Shown: piece after piece, positions 28,026 through 38,060 of the stretch | Layout: every line of letters begins with the position of its first letter | Numbering within the stretch: position 1 is the first letter of the stretch | Source: an uncultured Clostridia bacterium | GTDB taxonomy: Bacteria > Bacillota > Clostridia > Lachnospirales > CAG-274 | Reading direction: 5' to 3' | NCBI GenBank assembly: GCA_944384215.1 | Contig: CALWSN010000036.1 | Coordinates: forward strand, 1-40,336 | Length of the DNA stretch: 40,336 nucleotides | Notes under the pieces: generated by a model | Databases searched by the model: none | What the model was told of the DNA's origin: nothing | Seen by the model: the letters and a program-made list of their open reading frames with translations, nothing else | Position numbers and translations under genes: made by a program

Positions 28026-28949
28026 ATGGATAATAAAATAAGATATAATAATGCTAATAGATTTTTTAGAGAAAAATTTGGAGATAAAATAATAAAAGTT
28101 GCCCTAGATGGAGGGTTTACTTGCCCTAATAGAGATGGAACTTTATCTTATGGTGGGTGTATATTTTGCGGCGAAAAAGGCTCTGGAGATTTTGCAGGGG
28201 ATAGAGCCTTGAATATAGAAAAACAATTTGAAATATCAAAACAAAAAATGAACCAAAAGTGGAAAGAGGGTAAATATATAGCTTATTTTCAAGCTTTTAC
28301 TAACACATATGCTCCTTTAGAATATTTACAAGAAATATTTACTAAAGCATCTAACTTGCCAGATGTTGTAGGTATATTTATAGCTACTAGGCCAGACTGT
28401 ATAACAGAAGATATAGCTAAATTTTTAGCTAAGTTAAATGAAAAGGTATATATTTGCATAGAGCTTGGATTTCAAACATCTAAAGATGAAAGTATAAAGT
28501 TAATAAATAGGTGCTATGATAATATTGTTTTTGAAAATTGTGTAAAAATGTTAAATAACTATGGTATAGATATTATAGTTCATACTATTTTAGGATTACC
28601 TTATGAAGATAAGCAAGATATGTTAAATACTATAAAATATGTATCAAAATTTAATATAGCTGGTATTAAATTACAACTTCTACATATTATAGAAAATACT
28701 CCTTTACATAAGTTATATATTAATAAACCTTTTAAAATATTAACATTAGAAGAATATATAGATATAGTTATATCTTGTATAGAAATTTTACCACCTAATA
28801 TAGTTATACATAGAATAACTGGTGATGGTGATAAAAATACTTTAATAGAGCCTAAATGGAGCTTAAATAAAAAGGTTGTGCTTAATAGCATAAATAAACA
28901 ATTAAATGAAAAAGATACGTATCAAGGTAAATTATTTGACCAGAAGTAA
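28026..28949 (+). CDS. TIGR01212-family radical SAM protein (YtqA/YhcC-like)
   Basis: A 307-residue radical SAM enzyme of unknown reaction. The iron-sulfur cysteines are C33, C45 and C48 in TCPNRDGTLSYGGCIFCG, the wide spacing typical of TIGR01212 proteins such as E. coli YhcC. IAYFQAFTNTYAPLEYLQEI, VVGIFIATRPDCI and ELGFQTSKDESIKLINR are further family blocks in the barrel. The start ATG follows TTTGGAGG. The gene lies alone behind the DnaA-box-like cluster, without an evident link to its neighbours. Confidence 0.92.
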   Translation: MDNKIRYNNANRFFREKFGDKIIKVALDGGFTCPNRDGTLSYGGCIFCGEKGSGDFAGDRALNIEKQFEISKQKMNQKWKEGKYIAYFQAFTNTYAPLEYLQEIFTKASNLPDVVGIFIATRPDCITEDIAKFLAKLNEKVYICIELGFQTSKDESIKLINRCYDNIVFENCVKMLNNYGIDIIVHTILGLPYEDKQDMLNTIKYVSKFNIAGIKLQLLHIIENTPLHKLYINKPFKILTLEEYIDIVISCIEILPPNIVIHRITGDGDKNTLIEPKWSLNKKVVLNSINKQLNEKDTYQGKLFDQK

Positions 28950-28967
28950 AAATGTTATAAAATATTA

Positions 28968-28996
28968 TCGACATAACAAAAATTTTATTGTATAAT
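28968..28996 (+). promoter_or_regulatory. Promoter of the DUF4364 gene
   Basis: TCGACA (28968-28973) and TATAAT (28991-28996) are 17 bp apart, 34 bp before the start codon. Confidence 0.55.
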
Positions 28997-29030
28997 AATT
29001 ATAACTATAAAAAATTAAGAGGTGTTATAA

Positions 29031-29561
29031 ATGAAAAACTCTTCACAATTAGCAGAAAGTAAGCTTATAATAATGTATATGTTACATAAGATGAACTTGC
29101 CTATGTCTTTATCTTATATACAAGAGTTTGCTTTAGCTTCTGAATATATGGATTATTTTTCACTTTCTAACTATCTTAGCGAGCTTGCAGAAAGTGAGTA
29201 TATTATAAAAAATGTAGAACATAATAAAACAACTTATACAATATCTAAAAAAGGTTATAAAACATTAAATCTTTTTGAAAATCTTATCCCAAATTTTACC
29301 AAAGAAAAAATAAATGAATATGTAGCAATTAATAAAAATCAAATAAAAAAAGATTTAGATATAATAGCTAATTTTACTGAAAATGATAACGAATATACTG
29401 TAAAGTGTGCTGTATATGAAAATAAAACACCACTTATGGAGCTAAGCTTAAAGGTTGCATCTAAAAAATATGCCAATACTATATGTGATAATTGGAAAAA
29501 AGATGCTTCTAAATATTATTTATCTTTTATGAAAAATTTATTAAATAGTGATGAAAAATAA
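29031..29561 (+). CDS. DUF4364 family winged-helix protein
   Basis: A 176-residue protein of the DUF4364 family, common in Clostridia. The N-terminal half looks like a PadR/MarR-like winged helix (ESKLIIMYMLHKMNLPMSLS, then YLSELAESEYIIKNVEHNKT, TYTISKKGYKTL). The C-terminal half (VKCAVYENKTPLMELSLKVA, then a helical end) is specific to the family. I infer a DNA-binding regulator; no target is known. It starts behind AAGAGGTG. Its stop codon lies inside the palindromic terminator shared with the converging XRE gene. Confidence 0.85.
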   Translation: MKNSSQLAESKLIIMYMLHKMNLPMSLSYIQEFALASEYMDYFSLSNYLSELAESEYIIKNVEHNKTTYTISKKGYKTLNLFENLIPNFTKEKINEYVAINKNQIKKDLDIIANFTENDNEYTVKCAVYENKTPLMELSLKVASKKYANTICDNWKKDASKYYLSFMKNLLNSDEK

Positions 29562-29588
29562 GCCACATTAATATTAATGTGGCTTATT
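29557..29588. terminator. 32-bp perfect palindrome, two-way terminator
   Basis: AATAAGCCACATTAAT and its mirror form a 32-base perfect palindrome with T-rich flanks on both sides. It contains the stop codons of both converging genes, DUF4364 (29559-29561) and XRE (29574-29576). Confidence 0.85.
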
Positions 29589-29915
29589 TCTTTGTAGCTC
29601 TAGGTCTATTATACTATTTATTATAAGTTTGCTATGATTATCTAGTTTTTTATATTTTTTTATCATAGTAAGCTCTTCTTCTTTAATATTTAAATTTTGA
29701 TTAGAATATGATTTTATATTTGTAAGTCCAAGTATATAATCTATTGATACATCATAAAATTTTGATATTTTTATTAAAAAGTCTGAATTTGGCTCTCTTA
29801 TGCCAGCTTCATAGTTTGCGTAAGTTGTATATTTTATATTTAATTTTTCTGTAAGCTCTTTTTTGGATAAAGTTGCATCTTCTCTAAGTTTAATTAACAT
29901 TTCATTAATACACAT
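29574..29915 (-). CDS. XRE family transcriptional regulator (left arm of divergent pair)
   Basis: A 113-residue regulator with an N-terminal XRE/Cro-C1 helix-turn-helix (residues 5-62; KKELTEKLNIKYTTYANYEA is the DNA-reading part) and a short helical C-terminus, possibly for pairing. IREPNSDFLIKISKFYDVSIDYILGL is the usual end of the domain. The ATG is behind AAGGAGG. It is read away from the second XRE gene at 30137 across 221 bp with two opposed promoters and dyads, like repressor genes that control their own switch. A minus-strand TTGATT-17-TATAAT promoter serves it. No integrase or phage gene is nearby. Confidence 0.9.
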   Translation of the reverse strand: MCINEMLIKLREDATLSKKELTEKLNIKYTTYANYEAGIREPNSDFLIKISKFYDVSIDYILGLTNIKSYSNQNLNIKEEELTMIKKYKKLDNHSKLIINSIIDLELQRNKPH

Positions 29916-29993
29916 TTTACCTCCTTATATTTAATAATTTTTACATAAAAAATTATTAATAAAATAAAGATTGTTTAATATATAGTTTAATTT

Positions 29994-30022
29994 ATTATAT
30001 ATTGTTTTATACATAAAATCAA
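29994..30022 (-). promoter_or_regulatory. Left promoter of the divergent XRE switch
   Basis: On the minus strand TTGATT (30022-30017) and TATAAT (29999-29994) are 17 bp apart. An ACAC/GTG dyad (30029-30046) sits directly upstream of the -35. Confidence 0.65.
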
Positions 30023-30028
30023 TAAATA

Positions 30029-30117
30029 TTACACATTTTGTGATAAACACAATATAAAGATATTGACTTATTACACTAAATGAATTATAATATGGTAAAA
30101 AGTACACTATTTGTGTA
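30029..30117. promoter_or_regulatory. Three operator-like ACAC elements between divergent XRE genes
   Basis: Element 1 (30029-30046) has CACA-TTT-TGTG symmetry. Element 2 is a half site TTACACTAAATG (30071-30082) between the -35 and -10 of the right promoter. Element 3 is the dyad TACAC-N5-GTGTA (30103-30117) at the expected transcription start of that promoter. Their ACAC cores are 42 and 31 bp apart, close to whole helical turns. Confidence 0.5.
30063..30091 (+). promoter_or_regulatory. Right promoter of the divergent XRE switch
   Basis: TTGACT (30063-30068) and TATAAT (30086-30091), 17 bp apart; a near-consensus promoter for the 69-residue XRE gene. Confidence 0.75.
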
Positions 30118-30136
30118 AAAAAGACGGAGGTGGAAT

Positions 30137-30346
30137 ATGCTTAAAAATATATCTTTAGAAATAGAAAAAAGCAATATTAGTTTGCAACAACTTTGTAAGC
30201 TTCTATCTATATCTGAAAATATATTACATAGCTGGATAAGGGAAGAAACTTTTATCCCATCATCTAAGTTATTTTTAATGTGTAAGATTTTTGGTTGCTC
30301 TAGTGATTATTTATTAAACCAAAAAGAAGATAGAAATTTATTTTAA
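30137..30346 (+). CDS. Small XRE family regulator (right arm of divergent pair)
   Basis: A 69-residue protein that is only a helix-turn-helix domain, like a Cro or a small C1-type repressor. SLQQLCKLLSISENILHSWI is the HTH and FIPSSKLFLMCKIFGCSSDY the following helices, ending with the XRE-typical DYLLNQ. The ATG is behind ACGGAGGTGG. A near-consensus promoter with dyads overlapping it lies upstream. The DUF5067 gene begins 23 bp after its stop, without a promoter of its own that I can see, so the switch may control that gene and those behind it. Confidence 0.82.
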   Translation: MLKNISLEIEKSNISLQQLCKLLSISENILHSWIREETFIPSSKLFLMCKIFGCSSDYLLNQKEDRNLF

Positions 30347-30369
30347 AATGCTTTGAAAGGAGAGAAAAT

Positions 30370-31068
30370 ATGAAAAAGAAAAAACTTTTTTTAGGAGTAT
30401 TTACAACAGCTTTAATATTTACAAGCACTTTAGTTTTACAAGCTAAAACAGAAAGTATTAATATACCAGTAAAATATAACAATATAAAAATAAATGTTGA
30501 TGGTAAGCAAATATCTACATCAAATGAACCTTTTATATATAATGGGGTAACTTATTTACCTGTTAGAGATGTTGCAGCTGCAACAGGTAAAACTGTAAAC
30601 TGGGATGAAAACACAAAAACTGTAAGCCTTACATCTCAAGGTAATGCAGTTAATAATAATCAAAATACACAACCAAAAGATAATAAAGCATCTGTTAATT
30701 TTGGTGAATTTTCTGTTAATATTAGAGATGATTTTCATATAACAAAAGATTATCAAGGTAGAGATGCTATATGTGTAAAATATGATTTTACAAACTATGG
30801 AGATAAATCTACTAGCCTTAGCTTAGAAACATATAATAAGGTATTTCAAGATGGTATAGAGCTAGAAAGAACTTTTGTTAGCTCAGATGCTATTGATAGA
30901 CAATATTATGATAATAATAGTAAAAGTATACAAAAAGGTACAACTATTTTAGCGGGGGAATTTTATGTATTAAGAAATAAAACTTCAGATGTTTCAATAG
31001 AAGTAGATGATTTTAGCTTTTTTGGGGAAGATAAAATGGCTATAAAAACTTTAAAAATATCTAATTAA
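30370..31068 (+). CDS. Secreted protein with copper-amine-oxidase-like and DUF5067 domains
   Basis: A 232-residue exported protein. Signal peptide MKKKKLFLGVFTTALIFTST up to LQA, then one copper amine oxidase N-terminal-like domain (about residues 30-95; EPFIYNGVTYLPVRDVAAAT, VNWDENTKTV), an Asn/Gln linker, and a C-terminal DUF5067-like beta-sandwich (about 113-230; AICVKYDFTNYGDKSTSLS, YNKVFQDGIELERTFV). DUF5067 proteins are secreted immunoglobulin-like proteins of unknown role in Firmicutes. The start is behind AAAGGAGAG. It follows the small XRE gene closely and may be governed by that switch. Confidence 0.85.
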   Translation: MKKKKLFLGVFTTALIFTSTLVLQAKTESINIPVKYNNIKINVDGKQISTSNEPFIYNGVTYLPVRDVAAATGKTVNWDENTKTVSLTSQGNAVNNNQNTQPKDNKASVNFGEFSVNIRDDFHITKDYQGRDAICVKYDFTNYGDKSTSLSLETYNKVFQDGIELERTFVSSDAIDRQYYDNNSKSIQKGTTILAGEFYVLRNKTSDVSIEVDDFSFFGEDKMAIKTLKISN

Positions 31069-31106
31069 AATATAATATTATAATATTTGTAGTAAAGGAG
31101 ACTATT

Positions 31107-31718
31107 ATGAATAATAATAAAAATATGAAACAATGCAATGTTTGTAATAAAGAAATTGCAAAAAATGCTAAAATGTGTCCACAATGTGGAGCTAAAAATA
31201 AAAAACCTTTTTATAAAATGAAACGTACATATGTAATAATTATATTTGTATTTATGTTTTTTGGAATTTTTGGTAGCAGTGATAATAATGATAGTAATAC
31301 AGTATCTGCTAATAGTAATTTAGAAGTAGCCGTAGATGATACATTAGAAGAAATATCTGATACACAATCTGAAACCCAACAAGAGCAAATTAGCTATACG
31401 GCATATGATGTATCTCAATTGATAGATGATTTAAGAAATAATGCATTAAGTGCAACTGAAAAATATAAAAATCAATATGTTGAACTTACAGGAGACTTAA
31501 GTGTTATTGATGCTAGCGGTAAATATATAACTATAGAACCTAGTAATGATGATTTTTCATTTGAGAGTATTATGTGTGATATAAAAAATGATGAACAAAA
31601 ATCAATTATTTCTAGCTTATCAAAAGGAGATACTATTGTAGTAAAAGGTAAAATAACATCAATTGGAGAAGTTTTAGGGTATAGTCTTGATATAGATGAA
31701 ATAGCAAAAAAACAATAG
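31107..31718 (+). CDS. Zinc-ribbon membrane protein with OB-fold (tRNA_anti-like) domain
   Basis: A 203-residue protein. A zinc ribbon at residues 9-30 (CNVCNKEIAKNAKMCPQCGA), a membrane segment at about residues 42-57, an acidic Ser/Asn/Gln linker, then an OB-fold of the tRNA_anti-like type (VELTGDLSVID, IMCDIKNDEQKSIISSLSKG, GDTIVVKGKITSIG). If the ribbon is inside, the OB domain is outside. OB domains of this type occur in many exported bacterial proteins of unknown role. The start is behind AAAGGAG. It ends before a strong terminator. Confidence 0.82.
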   Translation: MNNNKNMKQCNVCNKEIAKNAKMCPQCGAKNKKPFYKMKRTYVIIIFVFMFFGIFGSSDNNDSNTVSANSNLEVAVDDTLEEISDTQSETQQEQISYTAYDVSQLIDDLRNNALSATEKYKNQYVELTGDLSVIDASGKYITIEPSNDDFSFESIMCDIKNDEQKSIISSLSKGDTIVVKGKITSIGEVLGYSLDIDEIAKKQ

Positions 31719-31735
31719 ATTTAAAAATCTTAAAT

Positions 31736-31767
31736 AAAAGCTTATATCAATTTGATATAAGCTTTTT
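31736..31767 (+). terminator. Rho-independent terminator
   Basis: AAAAGCTTATATCAA (31736-31750) and TTGATATAAGCTTTT (31752-31766) are perfectly complementary and end in a T-run. Confidence 0.85.
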
Positions 31768-31816
31768 GCAATTTATTACATTAAATAAGTTAAAATTTAC
31801 ATAATAAATTTTTTTG

Positions 31817-31845
31817 TTGAAATAAAAATAAAAAAATGATATAAT
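31817..31845 (+). promoter_or_regulatory. Promoter of the zinc-ribbon paralogue array
   Basis: TTGAAA (31817-31822) and TATAAT (31840-31845) are 17 bp apart, 33 bp before the GTG start. Confidence 0.7.
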
Positions 31846-31878
31846 CTATAATAAATGAAAAATTTAGGAGAGATTTTT

Positions 31879-32160
31879 GTGTTTTGTAAAAATTGTGGTA
31901 GTGAAATACCAAATAATAGTATAGCTTGTCAAAATTGTGGGGCACCAACATCTTTAGATAGTGGAAATATTGGATATTTTTGCTTGGGTTGCTGTGTACC
32001 TGTTGCAGGTATAGTTTTATACCTTGTATGGAAAGACCAAAAACCACAAAATGCTAAAAAATGTTTATGGGGATTTTTGTTATATATAATATTTATGGCT
32101 ATATATATTGCTATATATGTTGGTGTTTTTTTTATAGCAGGAATTACTGGAAGTTTATAA
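31879..32160 (+). CDS. Zinc-ribbon/two-TM membrane protein, paralogue 1
   Basis: A 93-residue protein: zinc ribbon FCKNCGSEIPNNSIACQNCG at the very N-terminus, then two membrane segments around a conserved loop LVWKDQKPQNAKKC. I chose the GTG at 31879, six bases behind AGGAGAG, because the protein then begins with FCKNCG just like its two neighbours; an ATG at 31855 lies ahead of that site. The ribbon should face the cytoplasm. Function unknown; such proteins are common in Clostridia and may sense metal or redox state or scaffold small complexes. First of three tandem copies. Confidence 0.82.
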   Translation: MFCKNCGSEIPNNSIACQNCGAPTSLDSGNIGYFCLGCCVPVAGIVLYLVWKDQKPQNAKKCLWGFLLYIIFMAIYIAIYVGVFFIAGITGSL

Positions 32161-32199
32161 AGAAAAATAAAATAAATTTAATTTTAGGGAGGACTAAAT

Positions 32200-32487
32200 A
32201 TGTTTTGTAACAATTGTGGAAAAGAGATACCAGATAATAGTGTAGCTTGTCAAAATTGTGGAGCACCTACTAATAATCAATTAGATTCAGGTAATCCAGG
32301 TTATTTCTTTTTAGGTTGTTGTATACCTATTGCAGGTATTATATTATACTTTGTATGGAAAGACCAAAAACCTAAAAATGCTAAAAAATGTATAATAGGT
32401 GCTTTAGCTAGTATTATTGCAAGTGTTATATTTTATATATTATACATTTTCATAATTGTTGGTGCAGTAGCAGCATCAGGATTTTAA
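32200..32487 (+). CDS. Zinc-ribbon/two-TM membrane protein, paralogue 2
   Basis: A 95-residue close relative of paralogue 1 (FCNNCGKEIPDNSVACQNCG; YFVWKDQKPKNAKKC), with the same layout of ribbon, short Asn/Ser linker, and two membrane segments. The ATG is behind AGGGAGG. Paralogues 1 and 2 resemble each other over the ribbon, first helix and loop, and differ mainly in the last helix. This points to a tandem duplication. Confidence 0.83.
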   Translation: MFCNNCGKEIPDNSVACQNCGAPTNNQLDSGNPGYFFLGCCIPIAGIILYFVWKDQKPKNAKKCIIGALASIIASVIFYILYIFIIVGAVAASGF

Positions 32488-32506
32488 TGGTATAATACTT
32501 TAATAT

Positions 32507-32535
32507 GCTGAAGACAATGTCTTCAGCTATTTTAA
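32507..32535 (+). terminator. Hairpin between paralogues 2 and 3
   Basis: GCTGAAGAC (32507-32515) pairs with GTCTTCAGC (32519-32527), followed by TATTTT. The apex AGAC-AAT-GTCT recalls other terminators in the window. It may reduce expression of paralogue 3. Confidence 0.7.
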
Positions 32536-32557
32536 AATGTAAAAGGAAAGATGTTAT

Positions 32558-32857
32558 ATGTTTTGCAAAAATTGTGGAAAAGAAGTAGTTAATAATTGTA
32601 TTATTTGTCCTAATTGCAAATTTGAAATAGGTAGTATTGACACAGGCAACGAAGCATTTATTTTTTTAGGATATCTTATACCAATAGCAGGGTTTATACT
32701 ATATTTTATATGGAAAGATGAAAAGCCTAAAACTGCTAAAATGTTACTTATAGGAGCTGGCGTATCAACAGCATTTTATGCATTTATATTTATAATGATT
32801 TTATTATTTTATGCTATTATTTATTTTATTATTTTAGTAATGTTATTATCATTTTAG
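32558..32857 (+). CDS. Zinc-ribbon/two-TM membrane protein, paralogue 3
   Basis: A 99-residue, more diverged relative of the two preceding proteins: FCKNCGKEVVNNCIICPNCK ribbon, then FLGYLIPIAGFILYFIWKDE, the loop KPKTAKMLL and a longer, very hydrophobic last helix. One extra cysteine is present in the ribbon loop. The ATG follows AAAGGAAAG. It lies behind a hairpin, so it may be expressed at another level. Confidence 0.82.
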   Translation: MFCKNCGKEVVNNCIICPNCKFEIGSIDTGNEAFIFLGYLIPIAGFILYFIWKDEKPKTAKMLLIGAGVSTAFYAFIFIMILLFYAIIYFIILVMLLSF

Positions 32858-32908
32858 AAATGGCTAGTGTATATATATTATCAGAATTGTTAAATTAAAG
32901 GTGTTACT

Positions 32909-33316
32909 ATGTATGAAAAAATATCAAAATTTTTAAAAATACTTTTTATGTGCCATTGTAGAGCAGATAGGTCATTTTTTTATAAGGGTAAGCAATTTCC
33001 TATTTGTGCTAGGTGTACAGGAGAGCTTATAGGTATGATAATTGCTATACCTATTGCATTTAAGATAAAAGATTTAAACTGGGTATATATTATTTTATTA
33101 AGTTTACCTCTTATATTAGATGGATTTATACAGCTTTTAACTAAATATGAAAGTAATAACTTTAAAAGGGTTGTAACAGGATTTTTATTTGGTATAGCAC
33201 TTATATTTATATTTTTAAAAATACATTATTCGGCACTTAGTATAGCATTAAAAATAATTAGTATTATTCAACCAGATAATCCAGCCTTAGATAAATATAG
33301 TCATTTTTTAAATTAA
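32909..33316 (+). CDS. DUF2085 family membrane protein
   Basis: A 135-residue integral membrane protein of the DUF2085 family, of unknown role. The family signature is complete: CHCRADRSFFYKGKQFPICA followed by RCTGELIGM, with cysteines C16, C18, C34 and C37 or close to those positions that could bind metal next to the first membrane helix. Three or four membrane segments follow. The ATG follows AAAGGTG. It comes directly after the zinc-ribbon paralogues and ends at a palindromic terminator, so it looks like the last gene of this membrane-protein group. Confidence 0.87.
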   Translation: MYEKISKFLKILFMCHCRADRSFFYKGKQFPICARCTGELIGMIIAIPIAFKIKDLNWVYIILLSLPLILDGFIQLLTKYESNNFKRVVTGFLFGIALIFIFLKIHYSALSIALKIISIIQPDNPALDKYSHFLN

Positions 33317-33317
33317 C

Positions 33318-33345
33318 AAAGGGAGCTTTAAAGCTCCCTTTTATA
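33318..33345. terminator. Palindromic terminator after DUF2085 gene
   Basis: AAAGGGAGCTTT and its mirror (33318-33341) form a perfect 24-base palindrome with a T-run on the plus strand. Confidence 0.88.
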
Positions 33346-33348
33346 TTA

Positions 33349-33378
33349 AACCTATATACTAAGTATATAGGTTATTTT
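33349..33378. terminator. Second palindrome, probable coaBC terminator
   Basis: AACCTATATACT (33349-33360) pairs with AGTATATAGGTT (33362-33373). It lies 22 bp past the coaBC stop codon on the minus strand, with T-rich sequence after it in that direction. Confidence 0.65.
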
Positions 33379-33394
33379 AAACTATATAAGCATA

Positions 33395-34591
33395 TTATAT
33401 AGCATTATTTAGTATTGTATCTACAATTTTATTAGCAAGCTCAAATTTTGTAAGCTTATCAAATGAAATATGGTTATTATTTGATATAAGGGTAGCTATG
33501 TTTGTATCTACATTAAAGCCAGCACCTTCTTGCTTTAAATTGTTAGCTACAATATAATCTAAATTTTTATTAGTAAGCTTTATTTTAGAATTTTCTAAAA
33601 GATTTTCTGTTTCCATAGAAAAACCACATAATATTTGGTTTTTAGGTTTGTTTTCTCCTAAATATTTTAAAATATCTTTAGTTTGTTTTAGCTCTATATT
33701 GTTATCTTTTACCATATGTTTTTTCACTTTTTCGGTATAGACATTTACTGGTGTAAAGTCTGATACGGCGGCAGTCATAAAAATCATATCAAAATTTTTA
33801 TGAATATCTTTAAAAGCATTAAACATATCTTCTGCTGATGTAGTGTTTATAACATTAGTAAACATAGGTGGGTTAACAGTTGTTTTGCCACATACTAATG
33901 TAACATTAGCACCTTTTAGCATACAAACTTTAGCAAGAGCAAAGCCCATTTTACCACTAGATGGGTTTGTAATATATCTAACAGGGTCTATATATTCACA
34001 AGTAGCACCAGCAGATATTAAAACATTTTTACCTAGCATAGTTTTTGGAAAGGCAAGTTCTTTTAATATATATTCAAATAAAACATCAGGCTCTGGCATT
34101 TTACCAACACCAGTATCATTGCAAGCTAAAAGCCCTACGGCAGGCTCTATAACTTGAAAATCATAATATTTTAATTTATTTATATTATCTTGAGTTATTT
34201 TATTTTCATACATATTAGTATTCATAGCAGGTGCTACTATTTTTTTGCATTTAGATGCCAAAACAGTAGTAGTAAGCATATCATCTGCTATACCATTAGC
34301 CATTTTTGCAATAATATTAGCAGTAGCAGGGGCTATCATTATAACATCAGCTTTTTTTGCTAAAGAAATATGCTCTACATCATAGTTGGCCTTTTTTTCA
34401 AAAGTATCTACAACACATTTATTACCGCTTAAAGTTTCAAAAGTTAAGGGTGATATAAACTCGGTAGCATTTTTTGTCATTATAACATTTACATCTGCAC
34501 CAGATTTTTTTAACATACTAACAAGATTTGCTACCTTATAACAAGCTATACCACCAGTAACACCTATTATAACGCATTTTCCTTTTAACAT
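33395..34591 (-). CDS. coaBC: Phosphopantothenoylcysteine decarboxylase/phosphopantothenate-cysteine ligase
   Basis: Bifunctional enzyme for two steps of coenzyme A synthesis: ligation of cysteine to 4'-phosphopantothenate with CTP, then decarboxylation to phosphopantetheine. The 398-residue protein has the flavin CoaC domain first (IIGVTGGIACYKVANLVSML, catalytic His in YDVEHISLAKKAD, PAMNTNMYEN), and the CoaB domain from about residue 188 (ISAGATCEYIDPVRYITNPS, SSGKMGFALAK). The ATG is behind AAGGAG. It is a single minus-strand gene among plus-strand genes. Full length with normal motifs. Confidence 0.96.
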   Translation of the reverse strand: MLKGKCVIIGVTGGIACYKVANLVSMLKKSGADVNVIMTKNATEFISPLTFETLSGNKCVVDTFEKKANYDVEHISLAKKADVIMIAPATANIIAKMANGIADDMLTTTVLASKCKKIVAPAMNTNMYENKITQDNINKLKYYDFQVIEPAVGLLACNDTGVGKMPEPDVLFEYILKELAFPKTMLGKNVLISAGATCEYIDPVRYITNPSSGKMGFALAKVCMLKGANVTLVCGKTTVNPPMFTNVINTTSAEDMFNAFKDIHKNFDMIFMTAAVSDFTPVNVYTEKVKKHMVKDNNIELKQTKDILKYLGENKPKNQILCGFSMETENLLENSKIKLTNKNLDYIVANNLKQEGAGFNVDTNIATLISNNNHISFDKLTKFELANKIVDTILNNAI

Positions 34592-37718: not shown

Positions 37719-38060
37719 CTATATCTTTTTATTATATTTTTTAGAAATTTTTATTATTTCATAAAATAAGTCTATAACTCTTTCTTTTTCTAAATCAGAA
37801 AGTTCATCTAATTGATTTAATATTTCTTGTAATTTTATTTCATTTTTAGAATTTACATTATTTCCTAAAATAATATCCGAAGAAACATTTAAAGTGTTAA
37901 TAATTTTAATAAAAGTTTGTAAAGTTGGTGTTTTTACACCTCTTTCTATATTACCTATATGAGTTGTACTTAAATCTAAAATTTCTGCAAATTCTTCTAA
38001 AGTTAAATTAGATTTTTTTCTATATTCTCGTATTTTTTTACCTATATAATTGTTATCCAC
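37719..38060 (-). CDS. XRE family transcriptional regulator next to SLOG gene
   Basis: A 113-residue regulator with an N-terminal Cro/C1 helix-turn-helix (residues 7-62: NLTLEEFAEILDLSTTHIGN is the HTH, then IERGVKTPTLQTFIKIINTL) and a helical acidic C-terminus (LDELSDLEKERVIDLFYEI). The start is GTG at 38060 with GGAAGG in front; there is no ATG in a suitable place. It is divergent from the SLOG-family gene with 171 bp between. Two direct repeats TAGTATA lie 11 bp apart (38088 and 38099) just upstream of its start region, a possible self-operator. It ends toward the nspC terminator. Confidence 0.88.
   Translation of the reverse strand: MDNNYIGKKIREYRKKSNLTLEEFAEILDLSTTHIGNIERGVKTPTLQTFIKIINTLNVSSDIILGNNVNSKNEIKLQEILNQLDELSDLEKERVIDLFYEIIKISKKYNKKI

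Follow-up and report, generated by a model that had tools for sequence, protein, structure and literature searches.

A pair of divergent XRE regulators arranged as in a lambda-type switch, in a chromosomal stretch where no phage is evident, raises the question of whether the arrangement is a working two-state switch, a chance juxtaposition of genes or what a mobile element has left behind. The pair lies in the window analysed here, a stretch of 40,336 nucleotides that is one contig of a 1.9-Mb assembly in 157 contigs. An earlier note on this DNA had described two XRE regulators facing away from each other, and this was confirmed: xreL (29574..29915, minus strand) and xreR (30137..30346, plus strand) are divergent and separated by an intergenic gap of 221 bp, and a ribosome-binding site was recognized by eye before both genes. 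XreL is a 113-aa XRE repressor, ImmR/RstR-like and without a peptidase domain; it matched Pfam HTH_3 (E 1.6e-13), its best solved relative by PDB profile was the ImmR DNA-binding domain of ICEBs1 (7t8i, E 1.1e-11), and it matched the NCBIfam RstR model (NF041951) over nearly the full model length with 61.9 bits, a value below the curated cut-off of 80. XreR, encoded by the first gene of the operon, is a Cro-sized XRE protein of 69 aa. It scored 21.0 bits against HTH_3, under the cut-off of 23, with a weak HTH_26 match too, and it also matched PHROG 8 (transcriptional regulator; E 5e-8), P22 c2 (E 0.003), and an XRE HMM built for this analysis (E 6.6e-15). This HMM was derived from 55 sequences from the XRE-match control loci, xreL included, and the scores that it gives to XreL and to the control loci are not independent of its training set. 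The structure of XreR was modelled from the single sequence with a pTM of 0.47, and the best Foldseek match had an E of 0.38, so that this model gave no confirmation of the XRE fold. As is typical of lambda-type switches, a longer repressor gene and a short Cro-like one diverge at this locus (113 and 69 aa, both XRE by HMM). Another XRE regulator of the window (37719-38060), likewise 113 aa long, is unpaired and has a YpsA/SLOG gene in its vicinity. In PADLOC, all matches were of the HTH type except a single weak one to CARF, and Rfam gave no match at gathering scores in 28900-33500.

The promoter scan placed P_L, the promoter of xreL, at 29994..30022 on the minus strand (TTGATT-17-TATAAT, 10/12 consensus matches) and P_R, the promoter of the xreR operon, at 30063..30091 on the plus strand (TTGACT-17-TATAAT, 11/12), with 40 bases between their -35 boxes. 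The scan, which is permissive (52 sites in 4.5 kb vs. 39.1 expected), thus agreed with the 17-bp-spaced promoters and the -35 distance reported earlier. The three ACAC elements were likewise recovered at the places previously described. O1 (TACACATTTTGTGAT, 30030..30044), an imperfect 5-5-5 dyad, lies between both -35 boxes; O2 (TACACTAAAT, 30072..30086) is a half-site inside the spacer that separates -35 from -10 in P_R; and O3 (TACACTATTTGTGTA, 30103..30117), a perfect 5-5-5 dyad, lies a short way past the predicted start of P_R. Their centres (30037, 30079, and 30110) are 42 and 31 bp apart, with 73 bp from O1 to O3. In P_L, neither the -10 nor the -35 box was overlapped by any of these elements, O1 being located upstream of this promoter and O2 and O3 in or beside P_R, and shared operators overlapping both promoters, as in lambda-type switches, were not found at xreL/xreR. 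The spacer of P_L carries a dyad, TTTTATacATAAAA, that differs in sequence from the ACAC elements and that, on reading both sequences, recurs with a single change in G007, one of the genomes of the genus compared below.

The ACAC elements are real but statistically only modestly above chance. Four copies of TACAC lie in the 221-bp gap, a number attained in 1 of 2000 shuffles; when the word was free to be any 5-mer having two or more G/C, however, 83/2000 shuffles did equally well, and with 6-mers 177/2000. For the paired-dyad statistic, 189 of 5000 shuffles attained the observed value, but so did 113 of 730 ordinary contig windows. As judged from the sequence, it is plausible that they are operators, and they are treated here as candidates. 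A genome-wide operator regulon was considered and rejected: TTACACNNNNNGTGNTAA had two exact matches in the genome, the second one behind an aspS-like gene in a gap rich in hairpins, and at two mismatches or fewer it matched 254 genome sites vs. 186 for the reversed control pattern, with no clear regulon.

In tandem with xreR, with gaps of 23 and 38 bp, lie a gene for a secreted DUF5067 protein (30370..31068, plus strand), displaying a signal peptide (by eye), a copper-amine-oxidase N1 domain, and DUF5067, and the gene znOB (31107..31718, plus strand), whose product has a zinc ribbon, one membrane helix, and an OB-fold domain and belongs to a phage lysogeny-module family. It matched tRNA_anti-like (E 5e-12) and PHROG 8545 'superinfection exclusion Sie-like' (E 4.6e-14), being by sequence a member of the latter family, and its predicted structure is an OB fold with 3f1z as the best PDB match. 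The four viral znOB homologues scanned all matched PHROG 8545 as well. In IMG/VR, znOB alone as query found no relatives and alignment A1 as query found nine; 12 viral loci were considered in total, three from phage records and nine from IMG/VR. A fourth and weak phage match (H34, 15% of the query) was left out of them, and L134 (26% identity), L130 (no XRE gene close by and no recombinase match), and L131 (contig edge) were kept as misses. Identity of the viral relatives was about 39-44%, with L134 at 26%. An XRE gene occurred within 2 kb upstream of the znOB homologue in 9 of the 12 viral loci, a divergent XRE pair in five (L107, L108, L109, L129, and L133), and a Pfam-confirmed integrase or serine recombinase directly downstream of the homologue in seven (L107, L108, L126, L128, L129, L132, and L133). 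In addition, an ImmA-type M78 peptidase was present between repressor and znOB homologue in both viral loci tested, and the gene order in Dulem virus 35 was repressor, znOB-like/DUF4352 protein, and integrase. No viral relatives of XreR were obtained by back-translation, and tblastn of XreR in phages gave weak XRE matches only (best E 0.02 among the matches listed).

The switch had been described earlier as being without phage genes. This held insofar as no integrase, terminase, or capsid gene was found in the 10 flanking proteins scanned or was evident by eye in the ORF list, so that the locus does not present itself as an intact prophage; neither was an M78 (ImmA) peptidase found among the 10 central and 10 flanking proteins scanned, and no other phage genes beyond the znOB-type cargo were seen in the window. 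It did not hold for znOB itself, given the phage-associated family to which it belongs. A contig fragment of the same genome (L135, contig C114) is prophage-like, with terminase- and portal-like ORFs by eye and a small XRE gene.

Among bacteria, znOB was found in 20 of 392 genomes of the order, mostly without a close XRE gene in the loci read; its surroundings were read in 11 of the 18 genomes other than those of this window and G004. A small gene with an HTH by eye is divergent from znOB in L177 and L178, recombinase-like or mobilisation-like genes (by eye) lie beside it in L173, L175, and L180, and the remaining bacterial loci read, L183 aside, had no XRE neighbour close by. From these neighbourhoods, znOB has a genuine though not an exclusive link to mobile elements. 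In L183 (3819-5580), from a different family of the order, a DUF5067 relative (36% identity) adjoins a weak znOB relative (27%), and on this evidence the DUF5067 and znOB cargo types may belong together. In G004, a broken znOB relative stands by itself, flanked by a lepA-like and an sbcC-like gene (L121:5879-6455), and G005 has two tandem DUF5067 relatives (L172:364-2082; 54-55% identity) without a regulator beside them, the 9 kb that were read containing no XRE gene.

The history of the cassette was followed in eight genomes of the genus. The gene order in G005 and G006 was radical SAM, DUF4364, two zinc-ribbon genes, DUF2085, and coaBC, the cassette being absent with no XRE gene there, and the cassette site measured about 120 bp in these genomes vs. 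2.3 kb in the window. G007 presented only an xreL orthologue (60% identity) at the corresponding site, and the P_L core sequence was conserved upstream of it; the ACAC dyads were not found in its counterpart region, O1 position included, and P_R was gone too. Since G007 keeps XreL and the P_L core without ACAC dyads, this comparison suggests that O1 is dispensable for XreL's own promoter; the absence of the dyads does not tell XreL from XreR as the binder, because P_R was also lost there. In G003, a 50-nt shard of xreR appeared just after DUF4364 (40/50 identical; 0/1000 shuffles as good) on a contig that ends shortly after DUF4364, and G002 carried an N-truncated xreL relative (78-79% identity) at a different site. 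DUF4364 and coaBC were apart in G004 and G001, where a search at both places gave no xreL or xreR. A search of 60 other genomes detected no close relative of XreR, the best match having an E of 3.9e-5 and identity not exceeding 37% across a portion of the protein. The earlier note had named a pair never found together elsewhere as grounds for refutation, and for intact pairs this was the case: xreL/xreR occurred intact only in this genome among the genomes searched, although the sister species G003 retains the shard. On the evidence of this shard, xreR is older than this strain, and the cassette as a whole is likewise older but in the course of being lost in the genus.

The limits of the operon bear on what a switch at this place could control. 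A likely terminator of the xreR operon, consisting of an AT-rich hairpin and a T run, was read from the sequence after znOB (31738..31767, plus strand); it was unlisted by the scan, which demands more G-C pairs. The promoter scan then gave a promoter of the zinc-ribbon/DUF2085 genes (31817..31845, plus strand; TTGAAA-17-TATAAT, with TG before the -10), and such boxes were also present before the relatives of these genes in G005, G006, and G007 (four species in all). Because the zinc-ribbon/DUF2085 genes have this promoter of their own, conserved in four species, they are probably not in the switch, and the xreR operon most likely comprises xreR, the DUF5067 gene, and znOB only. The earlier note had seen the right arm lead into secreted and membrane proteins and had suggested that the switch may control surface features. 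A phase-switching regulator of surface proteins over this whole arm (30370-33316) would be in keeping with its several secreted or membrane products, but it is very improbable in view of the terminator-like hairpin after znOB, the separate and conserved promoter, and the occurrence of the zinc-ribbon/DUF2085 genes in G005 and G006 without XRE genes; on account of the separate promoter, the whole right arm was rejected as a regulon. The zinc-ribbon membrane protein is represented in the window by three tandem paralogues, followed by DUF2085 (31879-32857), and by one or two copies in sister species. XRE and zinc-ribbon genes are also paired in two further genera of the family, with an XRE gene of 70-73 aa divergent from a zinc-ribbon membrane protein (L123:4999-5923 and L124:4963-5859).

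The explanation that we favour, at slightly better than even chances, is that of a lysogeny-type cassette left stranded, with the xreR operon under repression by XreL. Its source would have been a temperate phage or an integrative element, and it would now lie between core genes without that element. The ImmR/RstR-like XreL, made from P_L, most likely would hold down P_R, from which xreR, the secreted DUF5067 protein, and the membrane-anchored znOB would be transcribed; the ACAC elements in or beside P_R are likely operators for this repression, and the Cro-like XreR probably adds feedback. That XreL would repress the divergent promoter, like ImmR and DicA, is the economical reading. The genes, the promoter-like boxes, the elements, the operon layout, the phage-linked family of the cargo, and the erosion in the genus were observed as such; the binder of each element, the direction of repression, and the action of the cargo at the cell surface are what we infer from the whole. 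In favour of this explanation are the ImmR and RstR matches of XreL, the surroundings of the viral znOB homologues, and the syntenic comparison, and a stranded cassette would explain a lambda-like layout without a phage. Against it speak the position of znOB, which follows the short XRE gene here whereas it follows the longer cI-like gene in phages; the absence of other phage genes from the window as far as seen; the bacterial znOB copies, mostly with no close XRE gene in the loci read, and the DUF5067 relatives lacking one; the modest operator statistics; and the XreR model, which did not bear out the fold.

Two other accounts share much of this evidence. In one of them, which we consider rather doubtful, the genes are chance neighbours: XreL would be a resident regulator, facing a zinc-ribbon gene in G007, and xreR-DUF5067-znOB a later insert with its own autoregulator. 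The lone XreL of G007, in the same location and with its P_L core kept but the ACAC dyads absent, points in this direction, as do the nearly identical XreL recognition regions of G000 and G007 and the fact that other members of the family (G069 and G020) have XRE genes facing away from zinc-ribbon proteins; on the other hand, the G003 shard puts xreR at this site in another species, and the loss of P_R in G007 would itself let operators decay, so the missing dyads are not decisive. The other account, a working lambda-like bistable switch in which XreL and XreR repress each other's promoters and give two heritable xreR-DUF5067-znOB states, is unlikely. It would be consistent with the divergent pair and its two good promoter matches, with elements about four and three helical turns apart, with O1 centred some 50 bp ahead of where P_L is predicted to start, a possible activator position, and with DicA/DicC as precedent. 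Bistability, however, would need XreR to shut P_L, and the boxes of P_L are free of ACAC elements, so no matching XreR site to stop xreL is visible, the only dyad there (TTTTATacATAAAA) having a different sequence. Moreover, xreR, xreL, or both were lost in sister species, and divergent XRE pairs are common, occurring in 10 of the 65 XRE-match control loci (L001-L068, own genome included, minus the three loci of this pair), some of which overlap one another and all of which were chosen for XRE matches. The cI/cro-type layout proposed earlier is thus supported, and its phage/ICE flavour is strengthened by the ImmR/RstR-like XreL and the znOB family, but without an ACAC element over P_L; two-state behaviour would be possible. 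A more elaborate version, in which a phage-freed switch would be kept as a two-state controller of the exclusion-like znOB and of DUF5067, cells would differ in phage entry, and the piecemeal loss in sisters would track phage pressure, seems decidedly improbable.

The locus belongs to a known kind, because DicA/DicC, ICEBs1 ImmR, and Ltp modules precede it and divergent XRE pairs are common; most likely it is not a novel type of cell-surface switch but what remains of a phage-type control cassette, with two cargo genes, and a limited literature search found no paper on it. ICEBs1 carries the ImmA anti-repressor; unlike this element, the locus showed no ImmA counterpart among the window proteins scanned, and XreL has a small XRE protein as its partner. 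Both have an ImmR-type DNA-binding domain, divergent promoters, and several sites in the gap, which are candidates in our case; the available part of PMC4207663 describes promoters about 130 bp apart and six bound regions in the ImmR region of ICEBs1. As regards the cargo, ltp of TP-J34 is presented in the available text as a superinfection-exclusion gene in a lysogeny module (PMC3952083; Ltp in lysogeny modules also in PMC6356513), and this membrane-anchored cargo beside repressor and integrase occupies the slot of the znOB relatives in phages. In contrast to the ltp module as described in those excerpts, znOB lies on the short-XRE side with no integrase, and the likeness drawn here is one of gene position.

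The closest precedent for xreL/xreR is DicA/DicC of the cryptic prophage Qin of E. coli, a remnant pair already known to be bistable and with host-directed cargo. According to the accessible portion of PMC10448788, it is a functional bistable switch, DicA has 135 aa and no autocleavage site, and the stretch from dicA to dicC holds three lambda-like operators. By comparison with that description, a short repressor and its Cro-like partner appear stranded from their element, together with cargo, in both cases, the present one being known from sequence; unlike there, no ACAC element is located over P_L, the cargo, which shares its transcript with xreR, consists of a secreted and a membrane OB-fold protein, and no prophage body is left. 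If XreL and XreR do not form a switch, the locus is still a clear example of a phage-type regulator and its cargo stranded and eroded in a chromosome; if they do, it would provide a further bistable remnant immunity circuit beside DicA/DicC, in uncultured Clostridia and with exclusion-like cargo.
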